Positions 8,684 through 53,232 of a stretch of DNA of 64,000 nucleotides are shown here, piece by piece. Both the position numbers and the translations under genes were made by a program. Each line of letters starts with the position of its first letter. The stretch's first letter is position 1. A model generated the notes under the pieces. The model was not told the origin of the DNA and did not search any database. It was given only the letters and a program-made list of their open reading frames with translations. This DNA is from Bordetella parapertussis. Lineage in GTDB: Bacteria > Pseudomonadota > Gammaproteobacteria > Burkholderiales > Burkholderiaceae_B. The stretch lies in assembly GCA_945865935.1 (NCBI GenBank), contig CAMBFI010000008.1, positions 1-64,000 of the forward strand, written 5' to 3'.

Positions 8684-8783
8684 ACACACTCCTTTTATTT
8701 TTTATGCTGCTGCCGCGTTGTGTTCCGTTTTTTCTACAGCCAAAGTGAATATAAAGCCCTTCCGTCGCCTTGGGTGTTATGAC

Positions 8784-9809: not shown

Positions 9810-10477
9810 TTCAGCACACCCTTGGCGCGCAGGCTTTGGTCCACCCACTTACGATCCAACGTGCCTTTGGCGATTTGTTTCAGAATGTCCTTTTCTTTCT
9901 TTTCAACGGCCATCACCAACGCGGCCAACTCGTCGGCAATACCCGGACGAATAGCGAAGACACCATCATGGTCGCCAACAATAATGTCACCAGGGTGCAC
10001 GACCATGCCGTCGACCGAGACCGTGACGTTGATTTCACCAGGACCTTCTTTGTAGGGGCCACGATGAGAAATCGCACGCGCAAAAACCGGGAAGCTGCTT
10101 TTGCCAAGGCTCTCAACGTCGCGGATTGGACCGTCAATCACAAAGCCTGCAATTTTTTTACTCGCAGCAAGTGTGGACATGATCTCGCCAATGATCGCAT
10201 TGCGTTGCAGACCGCCCGCATCCACTACGATCACATCGCCAGGTGCAGCCATGTCAATCGCTTTGTGCACCATTAAGTTATCGCCAGGCGCAGTTTTGAC
10301 TGTGAAGGCACGTCCTAGAATTCGACCACCCTTGTGAAACGGGCGCAGATCAACCGTGCCGTTTGTACGGCTCATCACGTCACTAATGTTTGCGACTGCA
10401 AGCTTGGCAAACTTCTTCAATGTTGCATTGCTGACAGTGTGCTTGTGGGTGTTGATTGAAAATCCGAGGTTAGACAT
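9806..10477 (-). CDS. RraA-fold protein, probable HMG/CHA aldolase or oxaloacetate decarboxylase
   Basis: Member of the RraA / 4-hydroxy-4-methyl-2-oxoglutarate aldolase family: class II metal-dependent enzymes that cleave 4-carboxy-4-hydroxy-2-oxo acids to pyruvate and often decarboxylate oxaloacetate. The 223-residue protein retains the likely metal and substrate residues Gly97-Glu98 and the motif DGPIRD at 115-120 (Arg119, Asp120). Its context, between an alpha-hydroxy-acid oxidase and a D-2-hydroxyacid dehydrogenase and coupled to the latter by a four-base overlap, favours a catabolic enzyme over the RNase E inhibitor role described for E. coli RraA. A GGAG sequence five bases before ATG 10477 supports the start. 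Confidence 0.85.
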   Translation of the reverse strand: MSNLGFSINTHKHTVSNATLKKFAKLAVANISDVMSRTNGTVDLRPFHKGGRILGRAFTVKTAPGDNLMVHKAIDMAAPGDVIVVDAGGLQRNAIIGEIMSTLAASKKIAGFVIDGPIRDVESLGKSSFPVFARAISHRGPYKEGPGEINVTVSVDGMVVHPGDIIVGDHDGVFAIRPGIADELAALVMAVEKKEKDILKQIAKGTLDRKWVDQSLRAKGVLK

Positions 10478-10514
10478 AGTGACTCCACATAAAATGTAAA
10501 AAAGAGAATGGGGT

Positions 10515-11687
10515 TTAATCTTTACGACCGACGTGTACTAAAAATTCAGGCGTCAACTCTTTCAGCGTATTGACACCCATCATGGCCATGTTGCGCGAGA
10601 CTTCCTGCTCTAACAACGAAATTGCGTGATCCACACCTGCGGGACCACCCACTGCAGCCGCATAGTTAAACGGCCGCCCCAAAAATACGCAACGTGCACC
10701 CAAGGCAATCGCCTTGACGATATCGCTGCCACGACGCACACCACTATCCAGCATCACAGGGCCGTCTTTGAAGGCATCCAGAATCTGAGGCAGTACTCTG
10801 AGCGGTGCGACAGCGCCATCTAACTGACGTGCGCCGTGATTGGACACAATCACGCCATCCATGCCGTACTGTTTGCACAGTGCCGCATCGGCCGGGTGCA
10901 GGATTCCTTTAATGACCATCGGTCCCTTCCACTGCGCACGAATGGCACGCACATGGTCCCAGTGCAGGTGGCCACGCGAAGAAAAATCTCGCATGACGTT
11001 TGCCGACATAATCGGCGCACCGCGGGTAGCAAAGGAGTTCTCAAAATGCGGCATGCCGTGACGCATAAGCGTTTTCAAAAACGTACCAAATAACCAGCGC
11101 GGATGCGTAATACCCTGCCACGCCAAGCGTACGCTCGGTCTGAGGGGGGTAGAGAAGCCCGTGCGCACATTGTTTTCACGATTCGCCGAAGACGGCGTAT
11201 CCACAGTAATCACTAATGTTTTGAAGCCCGCCGCGGCCACGCGATCGATCAAGGGCGCGATTTGTTCGGTCTTCCCGGGCAAGTAAGCCTGAAACCACGC
11301 ATCCGGGGCGCGTTCGACCAACTCTTCCATGCGTATCAACGAAGAGCCACTCATGATCATGGGAACATTCGCGCGTGCCGCCGCTTCGGCCAACACAACA
11401 TCTCCGCGATAGGCCGACATTGCCGTAATACCCATCGGAGCCATACCGAAGGGCGCGTTGTACGTCTTGCCAAACACCTCCACTTGATGACTCCGCTTCG
11501 AGATGTCAACAAGAATACGCGTGAGAAGCTCATACTCTGCAAAGACATCGCGATTCGCCCGCAATGACTGGCCGTCTTCACATGCACCCGCAACATACCC
11601 AAAAATCGGTCTGGGCAAACGCTTCTCAGCCTCTCGTTCAAAGTCTGCGAGGGATAGGATTTTGGATAATGCGGAATCTTGACTCAT
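10515..11687 (-). CDS. FMN-dependent alpha-hydroxy-acid oxidase/dehydrogenase (LldD family)
   Basis: Flavoenzyme of the L-lactate dehydrogenase / glycolate oxidase family, oxidising an L-2-hydroxy acid to a 2-oxo acid with FMN. In the 390-residue protein the catalytic His284 and substrate Arg287 lie in SNHGARQLDG; Lys260 (MVIKG) should contact FMN, and the phosphate-binding end DSGVRRG...ALGARCVFLGRP is present. The substrate is not certain; lactate, mandelate and related acids are all possible. It is the first gene of the set oxidase, RraA-like (37 bases away), D-2-hydroxyacid dehydrogenase and Bug receptor, and follows tcdA by 21 bases on the same strand. Having an L-type oxidase and a D-type dehydrogenase together suggests handling of both stereoisomers (inference). 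Confidence 0.88.
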   Translation of the reverse strand: MSQDSALSKILSLADFEREAEKRLPRPIFGYVAGACEDGQSLRANRDVFAEYELLTRILVDISKRSHQVEVFGKTYNAPFGMAPMGITAMSAYRGDVVLAEAAARANVPMIMSGSSLIRMEELVERAPDAWFQAYLPGKTEQIAPLIDRVAAAGFKTLVITVDTPSSANRENNVRTGFSTPLRPSVRLAWQGITHPRWLFGTFLKTLMRHGMPHFENSFATRGAPIMSANVMRDFSSRGHLHWDHVRAIRAQWKGPMVIKGILHPADAALCKQYGMDGVIVSNHGARQLDGAVAPLRVLPQILDAFKDGPVMLDSGVRRGSDIVKAIALGARCVFLGRPFNYAAAVGGPAGVDHAISLLEQEVSRNMAMMGVNTLKELTPEFLVHVGRKD

Positions 11688-21714: not shown

Positions 21715-22377
21715 TCAGGCGCTGAGCAAGCCTTTAAGCTTTCTCACGGCACAATCGGGTGTCGTCAAAATTCTTGCGCTCGTTTTGACATCAGGATGCA
21801 GCGCAGCCTGCGCCATTGAAAACTGACCCAAGACGATTGTTGGATATTGAGCCAGCCCGTTCACCCGCTGGGCAATTAATCGATCGTGCTCGGGTCCGCG
21901 ATGCGCCAAGAGCTCATCTAATGCACCCTCCACCATAAAAGAATCGACGTCAGGCTTGAGGTGTTGTGCTGCAGCCATGTCCGACAACTCACTACGCAGT
22001 GCCTGCACGGAAGGCGCAAAGGTGGTCAGCATTGCGGCCTTACCACCAATCGTCAACAACTCTTCGAATAGCGCCTGATTAGGCGTGAGGATTGGAATGC
22101 GCTGCAAGGTTTTGAGGTGGTTGATGGCCTCACCAAACGCCGAGCAGGTAAACAGGATGGCATCCGCTCCCGCATCGACACAGTACTGCCCGAGTCGAGC
22201 AAAGCGCTCAACCATACGTGGTGTCATTTTTCCATCGATCAACATATCAATCGCAAGCGATTCGTCTAACAAATTGACAATGCTCGCTTCTGGCCACAGC
22301 TTCTTGAAACTGTTTGAGGCAGGCGCCATGGAGACATCCACGGCATGCACTAGAAATATTCTGGGCTTCGCATTCAT
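21715..22377 (-). CDS. Aspartate/glutamate racemase superfamily protein
   Basis: A 220-residue protein of the Asp/Glu/hydantoin racemase fold. The first active-site cysteine is Cys78 in LFTCSAFGEA. Where two-base racemases have a second cysteine (LxCTH), this protein has LGQFSMAQA, so it is probably not a canonical two-cysteine racemase; it may be an isomerase, decarboxylase or one-cysteine relative. It follows the Bug gene by four bases on the same strand, making the last gene of the operon SDR-Bug-racemase-like. That context suggests modification of an acid imported through the Bug receptor. Confidence 0.75.
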   Translation of the reverse strand: MNAKPRIFLVHAVDVSMAPASNSFKKLWPEASIVNLLDESLAIDMLIDGKMTPRMVERFARLGQYCVDAGADAILFTCSAFGEAINHLKTLQRIPILTPNQALFEELLTIGGKAAMLTTFAPSVQALRSELSDMAAAQHLKPDVDSFMVEGALDELLAHRGPEHDRLIAQRVNGLAQYPTIVLGQFSMAQAALHPDVKTSARILTTPDCAVRKLKGLLSA

Positions 22378-22381
22378 GAAA

Positions 22382-23356
22382 CTATTCCGGTTGAATCCCT
22401 GCGTCTTTCACAACCTTCCCCGCGCGCGCGATCTCTGCATCAAGCAAAGCGGCTAGTTCTTTGGGGCCACCAATCATTGGGGCGGCACCAATCGATCGAA
22501 TTTTTGCATCCGTCTCTGGATCCGCCAGCACGATGGCTAACTCCTTGGCTAACCTGTCGATGATCGGCTTAGGCGTCTTGGCTGGAGCAAATACTGCCAC
22601 CCAGGCGCTGTAGTCAAAGCCAGGCAGCCCAAGTTCACTGACCGTTGGTAATTCTGGGGCCTGTTGCACACGCGTCAAGCTCGTCACCCCAATCGACTTA
22701 ATTTTGCCAGACCGGATGTTTGGAACCGAGGTCGCAACGGGTTCACAAATAATTTCTAATTGTCCCCCCATCAGATCATTGAGCGCTTGGGGCGAACTCT
22801 TATAGTTGATCGTCTTTAAGTCGATACCCGCGGCAGTCTTAAACATTTCCATACAAATCTTGGAGCCGACCGTAGCCGTGCCATAGTTAAACTTTCCCGG
22901 ATTCGCCTTTGCCAGGGCAATAAATTCTTGCAGCGTATTCGCCGGAACGTTAGGACCAATCACCAAGATGTTGTAGAAATCTTTCAAGGCCATCGATACC
23001 GGCTCTAAATCCTTGGTCGGATGAAACGGTAAGCTCTTACGTAAGTGGAAATTGGCGGCCAAGGTCGTGCTGGAGCCAAGCACCAAGGTGTAACCATCCG
23101 GGTCCGCTTTCGCACCCGCATTGACACCGATGACGCCCTCCGCACCCGGACGATTTTCTACTACCACCTGCTGTCCCAAGCGCTGCGAGAGCTTACCTGC
23201 AACCACGCGCGCGACGACATCCGTCGCACCGCCCGCCCCGAGCGGAACAATGAGCTTAATCGCTTTAGAGGGATAAACATCTTGCGCCATGACGCTTGCG
23301 CTGCAACCCAGCACAACGGAAAAAATGCCCATGAGTGTTTTGAATAGCTTAGTCAT
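22382..23356 (-). CDS. Bug-family (TctC) periplasmic solute-binding protein
   Basis: Carboxylate-binding receptor of 324 residues. The signal peptide is MTKLFKTLMGIFSVVLG..., with a likely cut near VMA/QDVYP. Family motifs are IVPLGAGGATDVVAR, RPGAEGVIG and DPDGYTLVLG. The usual HVPYKG motif is degenerate here (TINYKSSPQ), which hints at a different ligand from the other Bug proteins in the window. AGGAG lies before ATG 23356. It is flanked by an SDR upstream (53 bases) and a racemase-like gene downstream (4 bases), all on the minus strand. Confidence 0.87.
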   Translation of the reverse strand: MTKLFKTLMGIFSVVLGCSASVMAQDVYPSKAIKLIVPLGAGGATDVVARVVAGKLSQRLGQQVVVENRPGAEGVIGVNAGAKADPDGYTLVLGSSTTLAANFHLRKSLPFHPTKDLEPVSMALKDFYNILVIGPNVPANTLQEFIALAKANPGKFNYGTATVGSKICMEMFKTAAGIDLKTINYKSSPQALNDLMGGQLEIICEPVATSVPNIRSGKIKSIGVTSLTRVQQAPELPTVSELGLPGFDYSAWVAVFAPAKTPKPIIDRLAKELAIVLADPETDAKIRSIGAAPMIGGPKELAALLDAEIARAGKVVKDAGIQPE

Positions 23357-23409
23357 CTAAGTCTCCTTATCGGCTTACCGAAATTTTTCTTCTATTTTTG
23401 AAACAACAA

Positions 23410-24183
23410 TCAAACAGTCGGGATTGATCCGCCATCCACAGGCAACACAATCCCATTCATAAATTCTGACAACGGACTTGCAAGCCAAGCCACTGCGCGC
23501 GCGACATCTTCAGGCTCCCCCTTGCGCGCCATAAACTCAGGGTTGGCTGTCGCAATCGTTGCGAGTTGCGCGGTCAGGGCATTGAGTCGCTCGGATGCAA
23601 TGGGACCTGGCGCGATCGTATTCGCACGAATTCCCTGATGCTGGTAGGCGTCTGCGATACCTTTGGTAAGCAGATTGATGGCCGCGTTCATGCTGCCACC
23701 GGGCAAATGAGCAGGTGAAGGTAGTCGCCCCGCTTTACCCGAAATGTTCACGATCGTGCCACTACCTGCCGCAATCATATGGGGTAGCACAGCACGCATC
23801 GTTCGCACATAAACCATCAACTTGCTTTGAAAGGTGCGCTCCCAATCTTCATCGGTCAGCTCAGTAAATTTTCCAAAGGTTGGCAAGGCGGTGGAGTTCA
23901 CCAAAATGTCGATGCGCCCTGCCTCGCGCACGATGACGCCTGCCGCACTGTCTACTGCCAAGGCTTGCGTGGCGTCCAGCACCTGCACAGTCGCATGACC
24001 GCCTGCGCGTGCAATGCGATCACAGACCTCTTGGAGCTTGACTTGATGACGACCGCTCAACCAGACTCGCACGCCCAAGTCCGCCAGCATGATGGCGATT
24101 GCTGAACCGATCGCGCCGGAGGCACCCAACACCCAAGCGGTTTTCCCCGAAAGCTTCAGATCAAGGTGGTTTGCCTGAACCAT
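23410..24183 (-). CDS. SDR-family protein lacking the usual Tyr-x3-Lys catalytic pair
   Basis: Short-chain dehydrogenase/reductase fold of 257 residues. The cofactor motif GASGAIG is at 20-26, LVNSTAL (the NNAG equivalent) near 94-100, and the active-site serine is probably Ser148 in NISGKAG. The segment where SDRs carry Tyr-x3-Lys reads PAHLPGGSMNAAI, with Pro/Gly at the tyrosine position and Asn166 at the lysine position. The enzyme must use other residues or may not be a standard dehydrogenase. ATG 24183 is chosen because GGAGG lies three bases before it; the frame stays open to 24258 without a good ribosome binding site. It is first in the operon with Bug and racemase-like genes, and divergent from another Bug gene across 166 bases. 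Confidence 0.83.
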   Translation of the reverse strand: MVQANHLDLKLSGKTAWVLGASGAIGSAIAIMLADLGVRVWLSGRHQVKLQEVCDRIARAGGHATVQVLDATQALAVDSAAGVIVREAGRIDILVNSTALPTFGKFTELTDEDWERTFQSKLMVYVRTMRAVLPHMIAAGSGTIVNISGKAGRLPSPAHLPGGSMNAAINLLTKGIADAYQHQGIRANTIAPGPIASERLNALTAQLATIATANPEFMARKGEPEDVARAVAWLASPLSEFMNGIVLPVDGGSIPTV

Positions 24184-24349
24184 ATGCCTCCAACTATATT
24201 TTTGTTCGAGGCACTGGGCCCACGCGTCGCTTGCATCGTTCCACAGGGGGTAGCTCATGTCAAGAACTTGTAGAAGATACGACTAAATATCCAGTAATAT
24301 CAGACAACAAACGAAAGATGCCTCAGCATCGCAAATATCAGGAGAAGAC

Positions 24350-25336
24350 ATGAATACTAAAATTTTGTTGGGCTGTGCAGCGCTGCTCGCAACAACTTTC
24401 ACCGCACTCAGCCCCACAGCCTCCCACGCCCAAGGCGCCGCGGATCGTCCAATCAACGTCATTATTCCTTTCGCACCGGGTGGTGGGACGGACGTCCTCG
24501 CGCGGCGTGTCATGCCAAAGGTTGCCGAAAAACTTGGTACGACGACCACCATCGAAAATAAACCGGGCGCTTCAGGTTCAATTGGCGCTCAATTCGTTGC
24601 ACGTGCAGCGCCCGACGGAAAAACACTTCTCGTTGGTTCAGTTTCTGAAATTGGGATTAATCCAGGCCTATACCCAAAGCTGCCTTACAACGTTGGCCGC
24701 GACTTTGTCGCAGTCACGGCGCTGGCCGCTGCGCCGATGGTACTCGTGGCGCATCCCTCTTCAGCCGTCAAGACGGCTAGCGACTTAGTGCGACTGGCTA
24801 AAGCCAGCCCAGGAAAGATCAATTTTGGATCGGCAGGTGCGGGAAGCGGCGCGCACATGGCCGCCGAACTGTTTATCTTTGAGACCAAGATCAAACTCAC
24901 CCATGTCCCCTATAAAGGTACGGGGGCTGTCACGGCAGACATGCTGGGACAGCAACGTGACATGGTGTTATTTGCACCGCTACCCGCCGTCGCTGGCATC
25001 GTGCGCTCTGGTCAACTGGTCGCCATCGCACAAACCGGTAAGAAGCGATCCTCTGCGATGCCCGATGTGCCAACCTTTATTGAAGCGGGCGTACCTGGGT
25101 TCGATATGGACTACTGGTATGGCTTAGTTGCGCCAGCAAAAACCCCAGCCGATCTGCGCAACAAAATCCACTTAGCCGCTCTCGATATCCTGAGCCAACC
25201 AGAAGTAATCGCCGACTTGGCCAAGCTAGGCCTCATTCCAACCATCACGACTGAAAAAGACTTCGCAGACTTCATTCAGGCGGATATGGCGAAGTGGGCA
25301 CGTGTCGTGAAAGCAGCAGATCTCAAGCTAGACTAA
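24350..25336 (+). CDS. Bug-family (TctC) periplasmic solute-binding protein
   Basis: Carboxylate-binding receptor of 328 residues. The signal peptide is MNTKILLGCAALLATTFTAL..., with cleavage expected after SHA before QGAADRPI. Family motifs are IPFAPGGGTDVLAR, KPGASGSIG, APDGKTLLVG and HVPYKGTGAV. AGGAG lies before the ATG. It is transcribed alone, divergent from the SDR-Bug-racemase operon, and its stop lies one base from the stop of the convergent SMP-30 gene. No membrane subunits are nearby, so it must work with a TctAB pair encoded elsewhere or with another partner. Confidence 0.88.
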   Translation: MNTKILLGCAALLATTFTALSPTASHAQGAADRPINVIIPFAPGGGTDVLARRVMPKVAEKLGTTTTIENKPGASGSIGAQFVARAAPDGKTLLVGSVSEIGINPGLYPKLPYNVGRDFVAVTALAAAPMVLVAHPSSAVKTASDLVRLAKASPGKINFGSAGAGSGAHMAAELFIFETKIKLTHVPYKGTGAVTADMLGQQRDMVLFAPLPAVAGIVRSGQLVAIAQTGKKRSSAMPDVPTFIEAGVPGFDMDYWYGLVAPAKTPADLRNKIHLAALDILSQPEVIADLAKLGLIPTITTEKDFADFIQADMAKWARVVKAADLKLD

Positions 25337-25337
25337 T

Positions 25338-26255
25338 TTATTGGTGAGAATGCATGGGCCGACCTGGAACATCCAGGTTGGCGATCAACACGCATCCGCT
25401 CTCAGATTCAGTAATAAACAATGTGCGGTTATCTTTTCCACTGTAGGCCATATTGGTCGTCGCCAAGCCTTCGCATGAATCGATACGCATGATGGGCACA
25501 CCCAGCGCAGAAAATCCCCAGACGATTCCGGCACCAACATGGGCGACTATTAAATTGCCCTCAATATCCATGGCCATCCCATCTGGGCCGGTCCCGCCAG
25601 AAAGTTGTACAAAAATTCCTGTACGGGCAAGAGCACCGTCCGGCGTCAGATAAGAGCGCCACACACAATTGCCACGCGTCGCCGCAACATAGAGTAGCTT
25701 TTCATCGGGACTCATGACGATACCGTTTGGGCTTGGCACATGGTGCAGGAGTCTTTCCAGGCGTCCCGCGGCATTCAGGCGATAGACCTTGCCATCGGGA
25801 TCGTCGATACTGCTTTGTCCTTGATCCGTAAAATAAGTGTCGCCATGACGGGTAAGGAACAAGTCGTTCAGGCCTTTGAAACTCTCCGTCATGTAACGCT
25901 CGACCACGGGCGACAAGCCGCCCGTATTTGGATCTAGCAGCAGAAGGCCCAATTTGTGATCGGTGACAAAAATCCTTCCGTCGCGATGTATTTTTAGCCC
26001 ATTGGGCTCACCGTTATATTCACACAGGACCTCAACATTCCCAGCAGGATCGACACGAAATATTCTGCTAAAGGCAACGTCTACCAAATATAGATTGCCT
26101 GCCAAATCAAACGAGGGGCCTTCAAGAAAGCAATCTGTTTTGTCTCCGCCCTTCGCTGCTGCGCGCCGCTCGGCATTCAGTTGGCCAGGACGTCGGAGAT
26201 GGTCAGGTACTCGAAAAAAAACTTCGGTTTTAATGCTTGGGGGTGTCGGATACAT
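25338..26255 (-). CDS. SMP-30/gluconolactonase family protein
   Basis: Six-bladed beta-propeller hydrolase of 305 residues, a family that opens lactones of sugar acids and other compounds using one divalent metal. Likely metal residues are the Glu in CFLEGPSFD, the Asn in SPNGIVMSPD and the Asp in GPDGMAMD, each in its usual blade position. There is no signal peptide, so it is cytoplasmic. It is the last gene of the six-gene minus-strand operon that starts with the Bug receptor at 31.0 kb, 11 bases after the isomerase-like gene. A lactone intermediate in that pathway is therefore plausible (inference). Confidence 0.82.
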   Translation of the reverse strand: MYPTPPSIKTEVFFRVPDHLRRPGQLNAERRAAAKGGDKTDCFLEGPSFDLAGNLYLVDVAFSRIFRVDPAGNVEVLCEYNGEPNGLKIHRDGRIFVTDHKLGLLLLDPNTGGLSPVVERYMTESFKGLNDLFLTRHGDTYFTDQGQSSIDDPDGKVYRLNAAGRLERLLHHVPSPNGIVMSPDEKLLYVAATRGNCVWRSYLTPDGALARTGIFVQLSGGTGPDGMAMDIEGNLIVAHVGAGIVWGFSALGVPIMRIDSCEGLATTNMAYSGKDNRTLFITESESGCVLIANLDVPGRPMHSHQ

Positions 26256-26266
26256 TACGCCTAACC

Positions 26267-26983
26267 TTATTTTTTATTTGCCAATAACTGCCCATGGCCT
26301 GGAATCGACCAGCCGCCACCGATTAAATTCATCGTGGCCCAGATGGCACAACTATTTGTACTCAGCACCGGCTTACCGGTGTCTTTTTCGAGAGCCTCAA
26401 TAACCTCTAATGTCATCCAGTTGCCGCATGCCAAGAATATTGCCTCCGCCTCTGGATGATCCGCTTGACGACCAAGGTCATACGCCGTTTGAGCCGAAAG
26501 GTGACCCACTTCAATATTGCTGATAATACCCATCGCCATTTGTCGCAAGACACGCACACCGCTGGCTTCAATGAACGCAGCAACGGTTTGATTGGTGCCT
26601 TCGCCCCACGGCGCTGCCAACACGATCTTCTTGATATTCAATAGTGAAAAGGCTTCTAGCATTGCCGTGGCGGCTGTTGTCGCCGGCTTGCCGCACGCCT
26701 GTTCGATACGCGCACAAATTTGTTTGTCATAGCCTTTGCCCAAACGTGTCGAAGGCGCCGTGGCAGACAGCACAACCGCATCGACTGCGGCATCCTTGAG
26801 TTTCTCGGCCTCCGATTCAAGCTCAGCCACGATTTTGATCGTCGATTCAGGATCAATATTGCGCAAGGTCAGGCGCGCGCAATGCAACGACACATCGTCT
26901 GGTAATACCTCAGCGAACTCTGGCTCTTGTGTCGTATTCGAAGACGGCAATAACAAGCCGAAACGTTTTGTTTTTTTTATCAT
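26267..26983 (-). CDS. Maleate isomerase / arylmalonate decarboxylase-like protein
   Basis: A 238-residue member of the maleate cis-trans isomerase and Asp/Glu racemase superfamily. The N-terminus GLLLPSSNTTQEPEF matches maleate isomerases, which use two cysteines. The second is present (Cys186 in ACGNW), but at the first site the sequence reads VLSATAPST near 72-79, with no cysteine. Loss of this residue is also seen in arylmalonate decarboxylases, so a decarboxylase or one-cysteine isomerase is possible. It lies three bases from the flavoprotein gene and 11 from the lactonase. Codons 2-4 contain a run of eight A bases (ATGATAAAAAAAAC). Confidence 0.77.
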   Translation of the reverse strand: MIKKTKRFGLLLPSSNTTQEPEFAEVLPDDVSLHCARLTLRNIDPESTIKIVAELESEAEKLKDAAVDAVVLSATAPSTRLGKGYDKQICARIEQACGKPATTAATAMLEAFSLLNIKKIVLAAPWGEGTNQTVAAFIEASGVRVLRQMAMGIISNIEVGHLSAQTAYDLGRQADHPEAEAIFLACGNWMTLEVIEALEKDTGKPVLSTNSCAIWATMNLIGGGWSIPGHGQLLANKK

Positions 26984-26986
26984 GGC

Positions 26987-28480
26987 CTACGCTCCATTGA
27001 CTAGGTTCTTTGAAACATGACGACCCGCTAATCGCCCAGAAATAAACGCCCAACCGAGATGGTGCCCATGCCCTTCCAACAGCAGTCCTCCTTGACCAGC
27101 GGAGCCTGCAGCATAGAGGCCGGGGATCACACTGCCATTTGAATGCAGGACCTGCAATTGCGCATTGACGTTCAACCCACCGTCGGTAAAGACGACATAG
27201 CTCTTGACGGGCCCCAACGCATAAAACGGACCCTGCGCGATGGCAGGACGCTCTCCACGGTCATTCTCGTTATACCTTTGCACGCTCGCCGATAAGGCAT
27301 TCGGATCTACGCCCATGCTTTGTGCCAATCCTTCAATACTCTGCGCTTGATGAAAGATATCAGGCCGATTGCGTCGGTAGTCGGCCAAGTACGCGTACGC
27401 CACACCAGGCGCCGTTGAGATAAAGTAAGGCCATGCAGAAAACTTCTCGGCCACCGCTTGATCGAAGACAATCCAACCCACTCGGTCCGGTTGCTTAGCC
27501 ATATCGCGATTAGGTTTACTCAGCTCATCGGTGAATCGCTCTCCCAGTTTGTTAATCAACACACCACCCTGTTTATACAGATCCGTCGATGGGCTTACAG
27601 CAGTCGTCAAGAAACTCATCAGGAACGGACGCAGAATGCACTTGGGCAGATAGTTCGCCGAGGCTGCGATCAATTGCGCAATCCACTTTTTAGGTGGCAG
27701 TTTTTGCAATAAATTTGGACGCGTCGGTGCGATAAACCGCATGATGGGCCCTCGCACAATATCCCCATTCACAACTTTTGCACCAATTTGCATCGCAATG
27801 CGATGGCCATCACCCGTCGCTGTCGTGTTGATAGCATCGACCAGAGCAACATCAGCGTTAGCAAGACTTGCCTTCAAGTCTGCGGCCGCGCTGTAGTCTC
27901 CACTTGCCAAGACCACTCCACAGCGCGTGCGTATCTTCTGTATCACGCCGTCCGGCGTGCGAACCTGCGCGCCAACTACACGGTCACCCTCAAGCAACAA
28001 GCTATCCAAGGCGGTATTCAACTGTATGTCTACGCCTAGCTGCTGACAGTGGCGTGTCAAATGATAGGCAAACGACTTGGAGTTTGGTACGACGTTATGC
28101 ATGCGCGCGACACGATGGGGTGGCTCTTCTTCAGGGCCAACAAACACCACACCTAAGCTCATCAACCAGTCGATCATTTCCGACGTGTTGTCTACAAGGA
28201 TGCGACGTAACGTTAAGTTGTCGCGTGGCGCAAGCTCACCGGCGTGCTTTTCCATGTCCTCGAAGTGCGCATCGGTACTGTCTACAATCCCCGCTCGACG
28301 CTGATGGGGCGTGCCCGTTGCGGTAATGGACCCCACCGACCATGAGGTCGAACCGCCTGTTTCAGCGTTTTTTTCTAAGAGAATGACTTTGCGTCCTGCC
28401 AACGCAGCCTCTGATGCGGCTGCCAAGCCTGCGCCGCCTCCACCCACCACTAGAACGTCTGCCTCGATCGTTGTTGCCAC
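26987..28480 (-). CDS. FAD-dependent dehydrogenase of the fumarate reductase / 3-ketosteroid dehydrogenase family
   Basis: Flavoprotein of 497 residues. The N-terminal FAD motif GGGGAG is at 13-18, followed by EKNAETGGSTSWSVG; the C-terminus YAAGSAGQGGLLLEGHGHHLGWAF closes the flavin site. This superfamily adds or removes hydrogen across C=C bonds next to carbonyls (fumarate reductase, 3-ketosteroid delta-1 dehydrogenase, urocanate reductase and others). There is no Tat or Sec signal and no haem motif, so it is cytoplasmic. The start codon is GTG. It lies between the PRISE-type reductase (12 bases) and the isomerase-like gene (3 bases), so two enzymes acting on alpha,beta-unsaturated carbonyls are co-expressed. 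Confidence 0.83.
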   Translation of the reverse strand: MATTIEADVLVVGGGGAGLAAASEAALAGRKVILLEKNAETGGSTSWSVGSITATGTPHQRRAGIVDSTDAHFEDMEKHAGELAPRDNLTLRRILVDNTSEMIDWLMSLGVVFVGPEEEPPHRVARMHNVVPNSKSFAYHLTRHCQQLGVDIQLNTALDSLLLEGDRVVGAQVRTPDGVIQKIRTRCGVVLASGDYSAAADLKASLANADVALVDAINTTATGDGHRIAMQIGAKVVNGDIVRGPIMRFIAPTRPNLLQKLPPKKWIAQLIAASANYLPKCILRPFLMSFLTTAVSPSTDLYKQGGVLINKLGERFTDELSKPNRDMAKQPDRVGWIVFDQAVAEKFSAWPYFISTAPGVAYAYLADYRRNRPDIFHQAQSIEGLAQSMGVDPNALSASVQRYNENDRGERPAIAQGPFYALGPVKSYVVFTDGGLNVNAQLQVLHSNGSVIPGLYAAGSAGQGGLLLEGHGHHLGWAFISGRLAGRHVSKNLVNGA

Positions 28481-28492
28481 GTTATCTTTACC

Positions 28493-29548
28493 TCAAGGAA
28501 TAATCTTTTGCGTTCTAAAGAAATCAAAACCTTCCAACCACATCGTGGGCGTATTCACGCGCTCTTGAAAACCGTCTCTGGCAGCTTTACGCATATCCGA
28601 CACGACATCCCATTGCAACGACATCACGTAATCACCATAAGGCCATTGCGCCAGCGCTGCTAAGTCTGAATTCTGTAAGCCATACTTCCTCGTCATATGC
28701 AGCCATGTCTGCGTATGCTGACGTGCAAAATCAGCAAACGTGCAGTCTTCTGGAGCACCGCACTCCATCTCAAAATATTGGGCAAACAACGGCCAGAGTT
28801 CAGACCAACTCATCGGATCGCCATTCACAATGTTGTAGGCCTGATTGGCACAACGCGGATCCGTCATCATCCACGTTGCGGCGCGCGCCAGTGTTGGCAG
28901 CCAAGAGAACTGCGTTTTAGCCTTATAGCTACGCAGCGTTCCGGGATAGACAAGCGGCAACCCTAGCTCTCGCAGAATCGATGCGTACAGACCCACGATC
29001 AGAATCATGTTTCGTGACTCGTCGGTGCGATAGTTGCAGAACGCATGTGGTCGAGATATCGACCACGACCACTCTCGTCCGCGCTGACGCTCTTGGAGCA
29101 AGCTCTGCTGTTCGTAATAAAAACTATTGAAATTTCCGCACGCATCATCTTCTTGATAAGGCGTGGGACGCTCTCGCACCGTATGACCGTAATATTTTGT
29201 GCCGTGCACCAAATGGATATGCTGTAAGTTTCCTGACGCCGGGTTCAAGGCATTGAGCAAGTTTTCCAACATCCGCACGTTGGTCTCTCGCGACTCGAGT
29301 TCTCCACCAAAGTGATCAAAGCGTGCCGCATACAGAACGTGTGTCACACTTGTTATCGCGGCAAGCTTATCAGCACAGTCTTGTGCGTTGGTGAGATCAA
29401 GCGCCAACATTGGGTAGCGTGCATCCTGCTTCGGCGCACGCGCAAGACCGATTGGATTCCATCCACCCTGCTCGAATAAATGCGCACCGACACTGCTGCC
29501 GATTTGGCCTGTCGCACCTGCAATCAAGGTTAATCGCGAAGAATTCAC
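28493..29548 (-). CDS. PRISE-type SDR (progesterone 5-beta-reductase/iridoid synthase-like)
   Basis: Extended short-chain dehydrogenase of 351 residues. The NADPH-binding motif GATGQIG is at 11-17. The usual SDR catalytic motif is replaced by the PRISE arrangement: Lys118 in HGTKYYGH, and Tyr144/Tyr145 in NSFYYEQQ followed by SWSISRPHAFC. Plant PRISE enzymes reduce the C=C of enones by 1,4-addition; bacterial relatives are poorly characterised. The start is GTG, six bases after the stop of the unknown gene upstream, with no strong ribosome binding site, so translation is probably coupled. Within the six-gene operon it likely reduces an enone intermediate. Confidence 0.78.
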   Translation of the reverse strand: MNSSRLTLIAGATGQIGSSVGAHLFEQGGWNPIGLARAPKQDARYPMLALDLTNAQDCADKLAAITSVTHVLYAARFDHFGGELESRETNVRMLENLLNALNPASGNLQHIHLVHGTKYYGHTVRERPTPYQEDDACGNFNSFYYEQQSLLQERQRGREWSWSISRPHAFCNYRTDESRNMILIVGLYASILRELGLPLVYPGTLRSYKAKTQFSWLPTLARAATWMMTDPRCANQAYNIVNGDPMSWSELWPLFAQYFEMECGAPEDCTFADFARQHTQTWLHMTRKYGLQNSDLAALAQWPYGDYVMSLQWDVVSDMRKAARDGFQERVNTPTMWLEGFDFFRTQKIIP

Positions 29549-29554
29549 GTTGCT

Positions 29555-30061
29555 TTAGTCTGGAAGGTATATCGCAAGATCTGCATGATTCGATAGGCTC
29601 AGTAACTGGTCTTGAGCGATGACACAAATACCTCGGTATGGAGTGCTGCGGTCTAGGCCAACCGTTTTAAGCCACACAAAGGGCAGCGCACAATCCGCGA
29701 ACGTCCTAGCCGGCTGATCCACCACAATGAGTGCTTGATCACGAGGTATACGTGGCGCGACCACCGCATGCCCTTCACGCTCCCCTTCAAACAAATTACG
29801 CTTGTAGTAGCGCTTATCAATCAGATCAAGCCAGGGTCCCATGCCACGTATTGTTTGGTAGTACGGATCAACAAACACCTCTGGAGAACGAATGGAGTAC
29901 ATCGCCAGTGATGACGGCCAGCCAGGCGTGTGCGTACAAAAGCGCTGCGCTGAATCAATTCCATCCACCGTGCACATGATCCGTAAGTGTTCAACATACC
30001 ACTCCCGCCAAGCTGCTTCGCCAGCGGGATCAGTGATCCCGCTTTGGCTCATAAAGATCAT
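29555..30061 (-). CDS. Conserved-looking protein of unknown function (possible dimeric alpha-beta barrel)
   Basis: A 168-residue soluble protein starting MIFMSQSGITDPAGEAAWREW. The pattern of an early hydrophobic strand, EAAWREWYVEHL helix and Cys-containing strand resembles EthD-like or other ferredoxin-fold (dimeric alpha-beta barrel) proteins often found in catabolic operons, but I cannot assign a family firmly. Its ATG lies directly after the stop of the Bug gene (zero spacing), and PRISE follows six bases later. A near-perfect 21-base palindrome covers codons 7-13. A second possible start is Met4 at 30052. It may be an accessory enzyme or chaperone for the pathway. Confidence 0.65.
   Translation of the reverse strand: MIFMSQSGITDPAGEAAWREWYVEHLRIMCTVDGIDSAQRFCTHTPGWPSSLAMYSIRSPEVFVDPYYQTIRGMGPWLDLIDKRYYKRNLFEGEREGHAVVAPRIPRDQALIVVDQPARTFADCALPFVWLKTVGLDRSTPYRGICVIAQDQLLSLSNHADLAIYLPD
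30023..30043. repeat. Perfect inverted repeat (10-bp arms, 1-bp centre)
   Basis: AGCGGGATCA and TGATCCCGCT flank one central G, inside the 5' coding part of the unknown gene at 29555-30061. In RNA it can fold into a stem of about eight pairs just after the start codon; in DNA it has operator-like symmetry. Function unknown. Confidence 0.6.
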
Positions 30062-31030
30062 CTAGTTCATCTCAAGACCGGAGCGCTTAATGACGGGTCC
30101 CCATTTTTTTGTTTCTTCAGCAATATGTTTCGAGAACAATTCGGGCGCACCACCCACAGGCTCGTAGCCCATTTTAATCAGCCGCTCGCGCATCGCCGGA
30201 TCAGCGAGAACCTTGTTAAAGGACGCGTTGAGTCGTTTAATTGCTGCGGCTGGCGTTCCAGCGGGCACGAGAAACCCATTCCACGAAGTGACTTCGTATC
30301 CAGGCACAGCGACCTCTGCGATGGTGGGTAGGTCTGGCACACCCGGCGAACGCTTCGCACTAGTGACCGCCAACGCACGAAGCTTCCCGCCTTTCACGTG
30401 TGGCAACAAGGGCGCAGGTTCACCGAAAATCAAATCGATCTCGCCGGACAGAATCGCATTGGTCGCGGGTGCACCGCCTTTATAGGGCACATGCTGCAGC
30501 TTGACGCCCGCCATATCGGCGAACATTTGGCCTGCCAAGTGATTGATAGCCCCGTTACCGCTTGAACCATACGTCAGTTTGCCAGGATTGGCTTTGGCCG
30601 CAGCGATGACATCCGCAACAGATTTATAGGGACTGTCCACCCTAACTGTTAGCAACTGGGGGACTGAGGCTACAAACACAAGCGGCGCAAAATCACTTTC
30701 TTCAAAAGGCATTGTCTTATACAAATGTCGATTAATAGAATGTGTGCCTGAATAAGCAAAAACAACCGTATAGCCGTCTGGCGCGGAACGTGCGGCAGCT
30801 GTTGCACCGATATTGCCCGCGGCACCACCGCGGTTATCGATAATGATTTGCGTACCGAGGTCGTCTCCGACCGCTTTCGATAACAAGCGAGAGACTACGT
30901 CCGCTCCGCCACCGGGTGGCCACGGGACAATCAATTTAATCGGTTTGTCAGGATAGGCTTGCGCTTGTGCCTGCAAAGGTACACAGGACAGACCAACCAA
31001 GGCCAGTAGTGCGTAAATAACTTTATGCAT
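30062..31030 (-). CDS. Bug-family (TctC) periplasmic solute-binding protein
   Basis: Carboxylate-binding receptor of 322 residues with a signal peptide (MHKVIYALLALVGLSC..., cut after AQA before QAYPDKPI). Family motifs are IVPWPPGGGADVVSR, RGGAAGNIG, APDGYTVVF and HVPYKGGAPATNAIL. It is the first gene of the six-gene minus-strand operon running down to 25338, so it presumably binds the substrate of that pathway. GAGAG precedes the ATG. About 170 non-coding bases upstream should hold the operon promoter. Confidence 0.88.
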   Translation of the reverse strand: MHKVIYALLALVGLSCVPLQAQAQAYPDKPIKLIVPWPPGGGADVVSRLLSKAVGDDLGTQIIIDNRGGAAGNIGATAAARSAPDGYTVVFAYSGTHSINRHLYKTMPFEESDFAPLVFVASVPQLLTVRVDSPYKSVADVIAAAKANPGKLTYGSSGNGAINHLAGQMFADMAGVKLQHVPYKGGAPATNAILSGEIDLIFGEPAPLLPHVKGGKLRALAVTSAKRSPGVPDLPTIAEVAVPGYEVTSWNGFLVPAGTPAAAIKRLNASFNKVLADPAMRERLIKMGYEPVGGAPELFSKHIAEETKKWGPVIKRSGLEMN

Positions 31031-31202: not shown

Positions 31203-33440
31203 TTAGGCGGAAGCGCGGCCAAGCCTGTCAGCCGCGCCTAACCATTGCGGACCGTCGGGTACGTTTTCCCAGAGGATCCTCTCGTAACCCGCCTGATCCA
31301 AGGACCGCAGCGTCGCAAATAGGGCCTGACTATACGCGACGGGATCTTTAGGCATCGTCACCCAATCTACGTTCGCACGTCGAACATGCGCCTCTGCACG
31401 CAGCGTCGTGGTGACGCAAACAATTTTTTGATGATCAGGCATCGCAAGCGACCGCGCTGACTCCAGCATGGCCGCAGCAGACAAGAGCGTTAAGGGCGTG
31501 CGCGGCGCGTAATGAGACTTGAGTGCGCCCGATACGCGCGGCGCCTGAGCATCTGCATCGCGCACTGGCTGCGCCAACACGGCGGCAATCTGCTCAGCGC
31601 TGATATGCCCAGGACGCAGCAAGACGGGTCCAACGCCCGTGTCTAGTCGGGACAGATCGATAATGGTCGACTCAATTCCAACAGTGCTCGCCCCGCCTTC
31701 CAATATCGGCAAACCTTGCGCGGTAAGTTCCGGAAACTCATCACGTACATGGGCAACAAGCGTTGGTGAGACTCGACCAAACTTGTTGGCCGAGGGGCCC
31801 GCGATGCCTCCCTGCCCAGAGGCCTTGGTCGCAGCAAACGCGCGAATCAAACGCTGCGCGACAGGATGGGACGGGCAGCGCAGCCCCACACTATCTTGGC
31901 CCCCACTCACGACATCGGGAATATGTGCCGCGCGCTTCAAAATCAAGGTTAAGGGCCCAGGCCAGAATGCATCAATCAGCAGTTGCGCCTCAGGCGGAAC
32001 GGTGTCAGCCCAATAGGCTAGATCGGCTTCCGGCGCGACATGCACAATCACGGGATGATTCTGAGGTCGACCTTTTGCTCGATAAATGCCGTTGACCGCG
32101 TCGATGTTCTCCGCATCAGCACCCAGGCCATAGACTGTTTCAGTTGGAAAGGCCACGAGACCGCCCTCGGACAGCACCTTGACCGCTTGATCAATCTGCG
32201 CATCGGACGCAAAAACCTGACCGCTCACGGTCTGGCTATTCAATTGAACTTGCTTCGCAGCCATCACGCATGCGCTCGCACACCACGTCGTCGCCGCGAC
32301 AGGCAATCGCAAGAGACCGACCACCTGATTGGCCGTATCGACCGCCTCGGCAAGGCTGCGACCCGTGCAGTTGACATGGCCCATCTTGCGGGCGCGCCGC
32401 GCCTCCCACTTCCCATACAAATGCAGAGAAGTTCCTTTGATTGCCAGCACACCCGCCCAGTTAGGTTCGGCCTGCACCTCATCTTGCCCGGGATACCACA
32501 CATCACCCAAAATATTCAGCATCACAACAGGTGCTAGCAGACGAGTGCTCCCTAGGGGTAGCCCAGCCATGACTCGAGCCTGCTGCTCGAACTGACTCGT
32601 CACACAGGCATTCATACTGAAATGACCACTGTTATGTGGCCGCGGTGCGATCTCGTTGACCAACAACTGACCGTCACCCAACACAAAGAATTCCACGCAC
32701 ATCACGCCTTCGTATTTCAAGCCGCGCGCAATCGCTAGCGCCGCCTGGGTCGCACGCTCAGTCATGGCGGCCGGCTGGGTGTCGAGTGTCGAGACAGCCA
32801 AAATCCCTTGCTCGTGCACATTGCGCGCAACTGGAAATACTTCACAGGCCCCATCGAGTCCACGTGCCAGCACGACAGACAATTCTTCTTTTAGATCCAG
32901 CATCGCCTCGAGCACGCAGGGCACACTTCCAAACTCTGCAAAGGCCTTAAGCGCCTCGTCGCAACTCCGCACTCTGGCCTGGCCTTTGCCGTCATACCCT
33001 AAGCGCGCAACCTTGAGGATCCCCGGAAAAAGTGTTGGAGGTGCCGAGCGCAAGTCCGTCTCGGTGCGAATCGCAGCATAGGGTGCAACTGCAACCCCTT
33101 GCGAGACAATAAAGGCTTTCTCTGCAATGCGATCTTGGACAATCTCCACCGCGTGCGCGCCCGGTGTGACACGACAGTGGGCGGCGAGCGCCTGCAAGCT
33201 TTGCGCGGGTACGTTTTCAAACTCAGTCGTGACGGCACGGCAACGTTGAGCCAGCTTACGTAGCGCCGCGTGGTCGTCATACTCAGCCTGGATATGCATA
33301 TCCGCGACTGAGGCAGCAGGACCGTCACTTGCAGGATCCAATACCGCCACGCGATAACCCAACGCCTGAGCCGCATGACAAAACATACGACCCAGTTGAC
33401 CGCCACCCATCAAACCTAACCACTCACCCGGTGCAATCAC
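31203..33440 (-). CDS. purK: PurK-Sua5 fusion protein
   Basis: A single 745-residue reading frame joins two normally separate enzymes. Residues 1 to about 385 are PurK, N5-carboxyaminoimidazole ribonucleotide synthase (ATP-grasp; GEWLGLMGGGQLGRMF at the N-terminus, GYDGKGQARV, NEIAPRPHNSGH), which carboxylates AIR in purine synthesis. Residues about 393 to 745 are a full-length Sua5 threonylcarbamoyl-AMP synthase for tRNA t6A (ETVYGLGADA, KGRPQNHP, AGPSANKFGRVSPT, and the C-terminal Sua5 domain LLRPGH...SHYAPRTPL). An internal Met393 at 32264 (MAAKQVQLNS) looks like the ancestral Sua5 start, with no strong ribosome binding site. The GTG start overlaps the purE stop as GTGA. In related bacteria purK and sua5 are neighbouring genes, so loss of the purK stop is a simple origin. 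Separate expression of Sua5 from Met393 cannot be excluded. Confidence 0.9.
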   Translation of the reverse strand: MIAPGEWLGLMGGGQLGRMFCHAAQALGYRVAVLDPASDGPAASVADMHIQAEYDDHAALRKLAQRCRAVTTEFENVPAQSLQALAAHCRVTPGAHAVEIVQDRIAEKAFIVSQGVAVAPYAAIRTETDLRSAPPTLFPGILKVARLGYDGKGQARVRSCDEALKAFAEFGSVPCVLEAMLDLKEELSVVLARGLDGACEVFPVARNVHEQGILAVSTLDTQPAAMTERATQAALAIARGLKYEGVMCVEFFVLGDGQLLVNEIAPRPHNSGHFSMNACVTSQFEQQARVMAGLPLGSTRLLAPVVMLNILGDVWYPGQDEVQAEPNWAGVLAIKGTSLHLYGKWEARRARKMGHVNCTGRSLAEAVDTANQVVGLLRLPVAATTWCASACVMAAKQVQLNSQTVSGQVFASDAQIDQAVKVLSEGGLVAFPTETVYGLGADAENIDAVNGIYRAKGRPQNHPVIVHVAPEADLAYWADTVPPEAQLLIDAFWPGPLTLILKRAAHIPDVVSGGQDSVGLRCPSHPVAQRLIRAFAATKASGQGGIAGPSANKFGRVSPTLVAHVRDEFPELTAQGLPILEGGASTVGIESTIIDLSRLDTGVGPVLLRPGHISAEQIAAVLAQPVRDADAQAPRVSGALKSHYAPRTPLTLLSAAAMLESARSLAMPDHQKIVCVTTTLRAEAHVRRANVDWVTMPKDPVAYSQALFATLRSLDQAGYERILWENVPDGPQWLGAADRLGRASA

Positions 33441-44797: not shown

Positions 44798-45265
44798 CTA
44801 GCTAGGCTCGTCGCTCCAATTATGGACAACACCTGGCTTGGCGTCGTCGTGCCGACCGGCATGATGAATGCCATAGATAAAGACCAACTTGTTTTCACGG
44901 GCGTAGCTCACCGTATCGTTCAAGACCTGCAAGAACTGGTGGCCATCCATCACAATGGCCGGATCCGCCGAGTGAAGCTTATCGAGAACAAGCACTAAAC
45001 CGCCATCTTTTTGATCTTGCAGGGTATCCCGCAAGCAATCAAACAAGCCTTCAAAGTCACCGCCAAAAAACTGGGGGTAGTCCACTGCCTTGACGATGGC
45101 GCGGAACACCGCGGAGCGACTACGGGCCTTATCGCAATCGGCAACACACCACGCTAAACCATGCTCTTTTGCCGCTTCAGACACCAGGTCGCGCCCAGTC
45201 AGAGGATCAAAATCCCCCCCGCGCTTTAACAGCTGACGCAACGCCGGATCAACCGCCTTTCCCAT
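44798..45265 (-). CDS. Barstar-like protein without an adjacent ribonuclease
   Basis: A 155-residue protein. The central segment DYPQFFGGDFEGLFDCLRD resembles the barstar signature around the helix that blocks barnase (YPEYFGxNLDALWDCL). Barstar proper is about 90 residues; here there are extra N- and C-terminal parts, the latter ending in a His-rich GIHHAGRHDDA. No ribonuclease gene is next to it. ATG 45265 has GGAG eight bases upstream; an ATG two codons earlier is too close to it. It could be an immunity protein for an incoming toxin, an inhibitor of a cellular RNase, or a repurposed barstar fold. Confidence 0.72.
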   Translation of the reverse strand: MGKAVDPALRQLLKRGGDFDPLTGRDLVSEAAKEHGLAWCVADCDKARSRSAVFRAIVKAVDYPQFFGGDFEGLFDCLRDTLQDQKDGGLVLVLDKLHSADPAIVMDGHQFLQVLNDTVSYARENKLVFIYGIHHAGRHDDAKPGVVHNWSDEPS

Positions 45266-45377
45266 ACACATGGCTCCTTGAATAGGTTAGGACAATAACT
45301 CGACAGTGGCTAGTTTGGAAGTAGCTGAAGCCGTTTCTTTGCCCGAAGAGCACAAAAATCGATAACGTTCAGCATAC

Positions 45378-45410
45378 ACGCCCACCAACATTCAAGAGTT
45401 TCGTGGGCGT
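45378..45410. repeat. Inverted repeat downstream of maeB
   Basis: Perfect 8-bp arms ACGCCCAC and GTGGGCGT are separated by 17 bases, about 25 bases after the maeB stop. A T-run follows only about 20 bases later on the transcribed strand, so it is a weak terminator candidate or an mRNA 3' structure. Confidence 0.35.
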
Positions 45411-45432
45411 AGGATCTAGGTTTTTACTTTTA

Positions 45433-47748: not shown

Positions 47749-47796
47749 AATGAAGAGCACCAATGAATTCAATAAAAGAAGTTAATTTTAGTCGCT

Positions 47797-48675: not shown

Positions 48676-48707
48676 TACAATTCGTGTCCAGGTTGGAGAA
48701 ATCAGAT

Positions 48708-49865: not shown

Positions 49866-49914
49866 CCGACACACAAACGACCTCATCGCTTCTAACGCTC
49901 AAAGGGTAGTCACG

Positions 49915-53182: not shown

Positions 53183-53232
53183 GGGGCTCTACCTGATTGC
53201 ATCATTCAACTTTATTTATATCCCCGCAGAAT

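Follow-up and report, generated by a model that had tools for sequence, protein, structure and literature searches.

What does a catabolic operon do when its enzyme families are familiar and their combination is not? We asked this of six minus-strand genes at positions 25338-31030 of a 64,000-nucleotide stretch of DNA (NCBI GenBank assembly GCA_945865935.1, contig CAMBFI010000008.1, positions 1 to 64,000; hereafter the window), which encode, in order, a Bug solute receptor (BugA), a 168-residue protein (U168), a PRISE reductase, a flavoprotein (FAD), a protein of the arylmalonate decarboxylase (AMDase) family (AMD) and an SMP-30 lactonase. The individual families are already known; their combination is not. 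An earlier interpretation made from the letters alone, the sequence-only reading, had taken the genes for a unit that imports a cyclic or unsaturated keto acid and degrades it through an enone and a lactone, with a gene set matching no described pathway. Our analysis supported a catabolic unit that captures an unsaturated or oxo acid by a receptor, and we found no paper describing the set in the open-access literature, where negatives are weak; it did not support the lactone as central intermediate. The same reading had missed a convergent second Bug gene and the coenzyme A (CoA)-dependent, ring-opening half of the system. We propose, at a probability of roughly 0.6, that the operon serves uptake and the first steps of a pathway that depends on CoA and degrades an unsaturated and/or oxo alicyclic carboxylic acid, probably with a six-membered ring. 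The observations behind this proposal are the gene content, the protein families, a conserved core and a genomic link to a CoA module.

All six open reading frames (ORFs) were intact, and recomputing the gaps between them gave the same 0, 6, 12, 3, and 11 bases as before. The Bug, PRISE, KsdD/fumarate-reductase-type and SMP-30 assignments of the sequence-only reading were each matched by Pfam. The first gene, BugA (30062..31030), encodes a periplasmic TctC/Bug solute receptor (PF03401, 243 bits); PRISE (28493..29548) is a short-chain dehydrogenase and putative enone reductase (PF22917, 82.6 bits, cut-off 27); FAD (26987..28480, GTG start) belongs to the fumarate-reductase/3-ketosteroid delta-1-dehydrogenase (KSTD) superfamily (FAD_binding_2, PF00890, 186.5 bits); AMD (26267..26983) matched Amdase (PF17645, 120.1 bits); and SMP-30 (25338..26255) is a beta-propeller of the SMP-30/gluconolactonase family (SGL, PF08450, 145.4 bits, cut-off 26). 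The longest stop-free run in 200 shuffles of the segment was 212 codons, exceeded by five of the six ORFs and not by that of U168 (29555..30061). Against the orthologues of Zwartia hollandica, dN/dS was 0.015-0.133 over the six genes, the highest value being that of U168, and 0.025 for the convergent Bug gene (BugB), at dS values of 1.4-2.9 that are close to saturation; all seven genes, U168 included, thus look to be under purifying selection.

The conserved unit is BugA, U168, PRISE and FAD, with BugB (24350..25336, plus strand; a second TctC/Bug receptor by Pfam) convergent to the operon, its stop codon one base away from that of SMP-30. Of 268 genomes of the family, 45 gave a U168 match; the match was strong in 20 of the 32 genus genomes and in G102 and G201 (G-numbers denote genomes, G000 being the source genome and G238 Zwartia hollandica LF4-65; L-numbers denote fetched loci). 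The order BugA-U168-PRISE-FAD was kept in the genus as far as the contigs reach. A BugA orthologue (54-93%) adjoins U168 in most fetched loci, L135, L136, and L143 being the exceptions, and a BugB orthologue (65-98%) stands convergent behind FAD in 14 of the 20 U168-positive genus genomes, including G000; it was absent behind the core in G247 and G257, and four genus contigs do not reach the position. Sixteen core loci were fetched outside the genus (L056, L057, and L130-L143, some on short contigs, L136 of only 3.4 kb): BugA was present at 50% identity or more in 13, an AMDase-family gene in 14, PRISE in 9 and FAD, again at 50% or more, in 5. The lack of a regulator stated in the sequence-only reading holds for the six genes and their immediate neighbors in the window, and does not hold for relatives, which carry at the cluster a LysR gene (G102 and G201, both with two flavoprotein/AMDase-family pairs and a second unknown protein, X230) or a sigma-54 activator (G254). 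Its finding of no membrane transporter stood and is usual for Bug genes: the whole of G000 (3.25 Mb in 54 contigs, the window's contig being C8) gave 123 Bug/TctC matches, a few of them fragments, or about one per 26 kb, versus four TctA matches, which lie on C2 (two), C10, and C15, with none on C8 beside the window's TctC receptors.

SMP-30 behaves differently from the core. All six genes in order, AMD and SMP-30 included, were seen together in 3 of the 32 genus genomes (G000, G238, and G262; the contig of G260 ends after U168, too early to judge), and these are the only fetched loci in which SMP-30 stands beside the core. None of the 16 loci from outside the genus has it at 60% identity or more, and G258 (L045), a close relative, has the rest, AMD included, without it. 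Orthologues at 68% identity occupy other loci in five genus genomes, in three of them together with a third Bug gene, BugC, and a racemase gene (L094-L096). SMP-30 is, to judge by these gene neighborhoods, a local addition to the operon. Since the window operon brings together modules that other members keep apart, a lactone step read from the presence of SMP-30 is weak. This bears on the route favored by the sequence-only reading, in which a free acid is processed without CoA within the six genes, the enone being reduced and a lactone opened by SMP-30. The tight six-gene tandem in this clade speaks for such a route, as do the intact motifs of both enzymes: the best Protein Data Bank (PDB) match of SMP-30 was Drp35, and the LEG, NG, and GPD motifs, whose E, N, and D are the metal ligands of SMP-30/gluconolactonase proteins, aligned with those of Drp35. 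PRISE and SMP-30 genes also share a neighborhood on a plasmid of Methylobacterium currus, again with CoA genes. Given the restricted occurrence of SMP-30 and the CoA genes that adjoin the core in many relatives, we regard the free-acid route as unlikely.

Those CoA genes form a module behind the core. The crotonase among their products is closest to MenB/BadI models, and the acyl-CoA dehydrogenase to models of acryloyl-CoA reductase and cyclohexane-1-carbonyl-CoA dehydrogenase; the other genes encode a CoA-transferase of the CaiB type, an acyl-CoA ligase, an enoyl-CoA hydratase, a short-chain dehydrogenase/reductase (SDR) and a 3-hydroxyacyl-CoA dehydrogenase. In 10 of the 20 U168-positive genus genomes, no more than about 7 kb separates the core from a CaiB-type gene (at least 70%); G255 is the eleventh, where a second contig shows the gene next to the flavoprotein end. 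The fetched contigs of G243, G263, G264, and G266 stop too early to show it. In the window's clade the gene is not adjacent to the core (G000, G238, G258, and G262; the contig of G260 ends). The module of G000 stands on contig C1 (L080, approximately 45182-53899) with the BadI-like protein (87%), ligase (73%), hydratase (73%), SDR (81%), acyl-CoA dehydrogenase (89%) and 3-hydroxyacyl-CoA dehydrogenase (87%), together with a homologue (58%) of the FAA-hydrolase family. The BadI-like query cut from G000 was misplaced (L080:10124-10900, the match lying at about 9989-10762), so that its scores are those of a fragment, and the full-length protein of G245 was used instead.

In a survey of 399 Burkholderiales genomes, 15 carried U168 (E ≤ 1e-40) and 19 the BadI-like gene (E ≤ 1e-100), with both in 14, U168 alone in 1, the BadI-like gene alone in 5 and neither in 379; the BadI-like gene thus occurs in 14 of 15 U168-positive and 5 of 384 U168-negative genomes. 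Rows dropped before counting were G496 (U168 at E 1e-15), G366, G441, and G607 (BadI-like matches of 44-45%) and G530 (half-length, at a contig end). In the sole genome with U168 alone, G364, homologues of the CaiB-type, ligase, SDR, and acyl-CoA dehydrogenase genes still adjoin U168 (L131). Fisher's test gave a P value of 7e-21 by genome, which overstates the case because genomes are related, and of 2.8e-4 by family, with the number of families taken as 51 from the highest label seen. Within the genus, 17 genomes had both, 3 U168 alone, 4 the BadI-like gene alone and 8 neither (P value 0.005); here a BadI fragment of G266 (92% over 71 residues, at a contig end) was taken as present, 38-44% matches of G247 and G257 were left out, and G247 was counted through an 85% match. 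In 7 of the 14 genomes with both genes (G271, G278, G320, G502, G523, G606, and G613) the two lie on one contig within about 18 kb; of the other seven, six belong outside the genus and have the two on separate contigs, most of them short, and the seventh is G000, where they stand apart.

The enzyme classes of the module are those of cyclohexanecarboxylate degradation by the bad-ali genes (AliA, AliB, BadK, BadH, and BadI) of Rhodopseudomonas palustris and Aromatoleum sp. CIB, as far as the accessible part of the source describes them (PMC9795900). Each class, namely ligase, acyl-CoA dehydrogenase, hydratase, SDR, BadI/MenB-type hydrolase, and 3-hydroxyacyl-CoA dehydrogenase, occurs once in the module, and both the L062 and the L080 cluster have one gene per class. 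Unlike the bad-ali system, the cluster includes a PRISE/flavoprotein/AMD/U168/Bug segment that finds no counterpart in that part of the source, and the module proteins score below the equivalog cut-offs.

Plasmids of named strains provided further contexts, of which we viewed those of 10 of the 172 records with a PRISE match and of 3 of the 6 records with an FAD match. On the conjugative plasmid pRK1-1 of Cupriavidus basilensis DSM 11853, a PRISE gene (36%) stands with genes for a DUF4286 protein, a type II 3-dehydroquinate dehydratase, and an SDR, and the run continues with a sigma-54 activator (55% to that of G254), CoA-transferase (58%), BadI-like protein (80%), ligase (62%), and hydratase and ends with an SDR (51%), acyl-CoA dehydrogenase (73%) and 3-hydroxyacyl-CoA dehydrogenase (70%). 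Plasmid pA of Ancylobacter polymorphus ZM13, the one FAD context of the three with CoA genes, holds an FAD homologue (46%), a TctC gene, a DUF4286 protein, a BadI-like protein (66%), acyl-CoA dehydrogenase, SDR, CoA-transferase, and 3-hydroxyacyl-CoA dehydrogenase. In Antarctobacter and Ponticoccus, genes for a "putative quinol monooxygenase" and an FAD oxidoreductase come after the one for PRISE. A product name of the barrel type appeared near PRISE in 4 of the 10 contexts (Cupriavidus, Antarctobacter, Ponticoccus, and Rhizobium) and CoA genes in 2 (Cupriavidus and Methylobacterium); the stretches of Priestia, Streptomyces, Pantoea, and Caballeronia showed no barrel-type name, dehydratase, or CoA genes. 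Beyond this lineage, too, PRISE or the flavoprotein is thus found in the company of a small alpha-beta-barrel protein. Separately, a type II 3-dehydroquinate dehydratase was noted near the plasmid PRISE gene in 4 of 10 cases (Antarctobacter, Skermanella, Ponticoccus, and Cupriavidus; L161, L166, L168, and L160), hinting that dehydration of a beta-hydroxy ketone may feed an enone to PRISE.

Several observations weigh against a single CoA-dependent pathway. The core and the CoA module are on different contigs in G000, G238, G258, and G262; the co-occurrence of U168 and the BadI-like gene is clustered in four families; and the BadI-like gene is found without U168 in five genomes at the order level and four at the genus level, although in two of the latter (G248 and G250) the contig ends where the core would be. 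Outside the genus, PRISE is absent from 7 of the 16 core loci, and both flavoprotein types are absent from 7 of 16. The AMDase-family gene beside U168 is of a two-cysteine type in five tested loci (G102, G201, G320, G403, and G523). Among the plasmids, 6 of the 10 PRISE contexts are without a barrel-type name, and the nearest FAD homologues viewed (Azospirillum, 56%; Neorhizobium, 55%) stand with other flavoproteins and ABC transporters, with no CoA genes in about 17 kb. A U168 homologue (27%) of Burkholderia arboris, in an unannotated part of its record, has no other query gene around it, and with 123 Bug matches in the genome a Bug gene next to a catabolic gene means little alone. Finally, the module proteins of G245 miss the NCBIfam cut-offs of the cyclohexanecarboxylate equivalogs (BadI-like, 222.9 of 467.6 bits; AliA-like, 247.2 of 792.3; AliB-like, 152 of 575.4), and the six-membered ring therefore rests on superfamily resemblance.

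Weighing both sides, we infer one pathway with a ring substrate and the following reactions in this order. BugA and BugB would bind the acid. In the cytoplasm, the flavoprotein, by flavin-dependent alpha,beta-dehydrogenation or reduction, and PRISE, by enone reduction with NAD(P)H, would set the oxidation state of the ring beside the carbonyl. The AMDase-family protein might decarboxylate or re-protonate an alpha-unsaturated acid intermediate, and U168, a predicted alpha/beta barrel, might carry out a cofactor-free isomerization or enolization. The resulting ring acid would pass to the module on C1, where a CoA ligase or CoA-transferase would activate it; acyl-CoA dehydrogenase, hydratase, and SDR would produce a 2-oxo ring thioester, and the BadI/MenB-like enzyme would open the ring. 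SMP-30 would be an accessory lactonase that joined in the window's clade. More tentatively, the whole may be an undescribed aerobic, non-aromatizing route for oxo- or unsaturated cyclohexane carboxylic acids, with plasmid-borne versions in alpha- and beta-proteobacteria; terpenoid- or quinate/shikimate-derived acids or the carboxyl-rich alicyclic fraction of lake organic matter are, for example, candidate sources. Alicyclic acids are thought to make up a large and poorly understood share of dissolved organic matter in lakes. Such a pathway, if true, would provide bacterial PRISE enzymes with a physiological role, and likewise the AMDase-like proteins with one cysteine and a new family of alpha/beta barrels. 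A ring substrate and the enzymes are directly testable, since a conserved cluster is present in Zwartia hollandica, a cultivated freshwater species, and in Cupriavidus basilensis on a sequenced plasmid.

The assignment of PRISE is supported along its full length. Beyond the Pfam match, it aligned with the progesterone 5-beta-reductase 5mlh at E 3.2e-43 over residues 4-351, plant progesterone 5-beta-reductases being the closest PDB group. The motif is intact, with Lys118 and Tyr144/145 at the catalytic positions, residues which we take to have the catalytic roles. Like the plant members of the family (progesterone 5-beta-reductase and iridoid synthase), the protein thus has full-length homology and the Lys and Tyr of the motif; unlike them, it is bacterial and encoded in a catabolic cluster with flavoprotein and CoA genes.

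The flavoprotein, by comparison of aligned sequences, forms a subfamily of its own with the C-terminal motif GLLLEGHGHHLGWAF. It shares the FAD_binding_2 family with flavocytochrome c3, urocanate reductase, KSTD, TcuA, and the 4-oxocyclohexanecarboxylate dehydrogenases, and it differs from them in that all the NCBIfam equivalogs listed for it score far below cut-off and active-site residues are not kept: in the alignment with 1qo8, a gap spans the stretch of the catalytic Arg, and the residues differ at the HH and second Arg positions, which have active-site roles in fumarate reductase. We rejected flavocytochrome c and the tricarballylate dehydrogenase TcuA (172 and 150 bits versus cut-offs of 285 and 369) and 4-oxocyclohexanecarboxylate dehydrogenase (92 and 91 bits versus cut-offs of 1000 and 900 for NF053676 and NF053677) as identities. 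KSTD itself was rejected at 136.5 bits versus the NF009478 cut-off of 789. The AlphaFold2 model was poor (pLDDT 46.5) and was not used. Since both the flavoprotein and PRISE superfamilies include steroid enzymes, one may picture a pathway for steroid or bile-acid fragments, with a KSTD-like flavoprotein, a 5-beta-reductase-like PRISE, and a BadI-like hydrolase acting on steroid rings, and the genome holds two better KSTD-like genes elsewhere (453 and 440 bits). We hold this for very improbable: the KSTD cut-off is reached nowhere in G000, where other steroid markers were not searched, and the nearest solved relatives of the BadI-like protein, found with the fragment query, are MenB naphthoyl-CoA synthases. 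The two KSTD-like genes are at C17:22422-24110 and C12:47789-49465, each with Bug genes within 7 kb.

AMD was described by the sequence-only reading as a one-cysteine, maleate-isomerase-like protein. The single catalytic cysteine stood, in that C186 occupies one of the two catalytic positions and Ala74 the other; the protein has five cysteines in total, and its best score was to arylmalonate decarboxylase. In the alignment with 3dg9, the residues are A74, T75, and C186, the last aligned with Cys188, and Ala rather than Cys at position 74 places the protein on the AMDase side. Maleate cis-trans isomerases have two catalytic cysteines, and on this ground we rejected that identity. Compared with the AMDases of Maimanakos et al. 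2016, as described in the portion of the paper available (PMC4996985), AMD keeps Cys188, Thr75, Gly189, Leu40, and a non-Cys residue at position 74, and has orphan Bug genes close by, as reported there for beta-proteobacterial AMDase genes. It differs from them by Y126W, Y48T, V156N, P15S, S76A, G74A, and an altered LMGTSLSF, and a mandelate-racemase/muconate-cycloisomerase gene, reported there as a neighbor of 61% of AMDase genes, was not among the ten proteins scanned around it. As a true AMDase it was rejected because the 12 criteria of PMC4996985 call for identical or similar residues throughout, and AMD has W, T, N, and LSATAPST in place of Y126, Y48, V156, and LMGTSLSF; against NF052327 it scored 116 of 225 bits. 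The same portion of that paper calls AMDases very rare and treats their natural substrate as not yet known. Among the AMDase-family proteins tested, those of the window, G262, G254, G244, G255, G613, and G502 and AMDc of G102 and G201 have one catalytic cysteine, and those of G320, G523, and G403 and AMDb of G102 and G201 have two. Across G000 we noted seven AMDase-family matches (C8, C6, C23, C2, and C10), one with an in-frame stop in the matched stretch.

AMD orthologues (69-79%) also occur at other loci in seven genus genomes (L087-L093), with a Bug gene near in several and a DUF2076 gene adjoining in the three tested (L087, L091, and L092). Taken with the SMP-30 orthologues that stand with BugC and a racemase gene and with the 123 Bug matches in 3.2 Mb, this could mean that the operon is a patchwork of reshuffled Bug-linked catabolic cassettes (the core, AMD, and SMP-30/BugC/racemase) serving two or three unrelated substrates. 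The order of BugA, U168, PRISE, and FAD, kept in the genus as far as contigs reach, makes this rather unlikely, as do the AMDase-family genes that recur by the core, both in G254, where the gene lies near it in a different orientation, and in 14 of the 16 loci from other genera, and the position of one of the seven other AMD orthologues (G247, 70%, L089) amid hydratase, SDR, and acyl-CoA dehydrogenase genes of the module.

For U168, a Pfam search up to E 10 matched no family, and its profile gave weak Wnt matches only among PDB sequences (E 0.9 and above). Its AlphaFold2 model (168 residues, pLDDT 74.3) looks like a tandem alpha/beta barrel with two ferredoxin-like halves. Foldseek found nothing under E 0.001, the best match (8.6e-3) being an anthrone-oxidase-like protein; VIA-align gave Z 9.7 to 2pgc (root mean square deviation 4.3, 154 residues aligned) and Z 9.3 to the anthrone-oxidase-like 5f9p (3.8, 152 aligned), values that modestly exceed those usual for models without a clear match and leave room for unlisted families. 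The U168 profile matched the DUF4286-annotated plasmid proteins of the Cupriavidus and Ancylobacter clusters at 3.8e-6 and 1e-4. These matches and the two predicted halves suggest a likeness to the EthD, DUF4286, and antibiotic-biosynthesis-monooxygenase barrels, from which it differs in matching no Pfam model. Because alpha/beta barrels of this kind include cofactor-free oxygenases, isomerases, and cyclases, a cofactor-free rearrangement is our guess for U168. An acyl-CoA ligase (52-54% to that of the module) lies near U168 paralogues in four of six loci viewed (L144, L145, L146, and L149), which ties the family to CoA chemistry. Across the phylum, in 398 genomes at E ≤ 1e-12, the sole match was the window's own genome. 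X230, of about 225 residues, accompanies PRISE or U168 clusters in several lineages (L056 8213-8902, L057 11561-12253, L146 10843-11520, L147 14155-14916, L161 4452-5126, and L168 4467-5141), and the DUF4286 protein of Cupriavidus gave a partial match to it (34% over 111 residues).

The closest named records to the cluster were Zwartia hollandica LF4-65 (84%, PRISE) and a metagenome-assembled genome of Sheuella (67%), and by sequence the source genome most likely belongs to the Zwartia/Sheuella group of Alcaligenaceae, the family in which Zwartia is classed. Zwartia was described from fresh water, according to the accessible text of PMC10535154. Two contigs of metagenome-assembled genomes in the window's genus (L049 and L051), titled Bordetella parapertussis, also carry the cluster, and the species label is probably wrong.

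A promoter scan found two sites, both on the plus strand, versus 5.7 in shuffles, and no Rfam family was found between 20 and 34 kb of the window. Next to the operon, the 21715..24258 segment holds, all on the minus strand, the racemase gene of the Asp/Glu family (21715-22377), BugC (22382-23356) and an SDR gene (23410-24258). On the other side, purK is located 172 bases upstream of the operon as a 745-residue ORF (31203-33440), the C-terminal half of which presumably resembles a Sua5/TsaC-type protein by its motif; the same region in Zwartia hollandica (L046) and G260 (L060) consists of two overlapping ORFs. The Bug/TctC matches inside the window are those at 22382-23356, 24350-25336, 30062-31030, and 7703-8689. 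The last belongs to a minus-strand run at 7703-11687 that, from the translations, comprises a Bug receptor and D-isomer hydroxyacid dehydrogenase-like, RraA-like, and FMN lactate-oxidase-like genes, and a UvrA-like ORF of 1875 residues at 281-5908 is apparently, from its translation, a tandem double UvrA.

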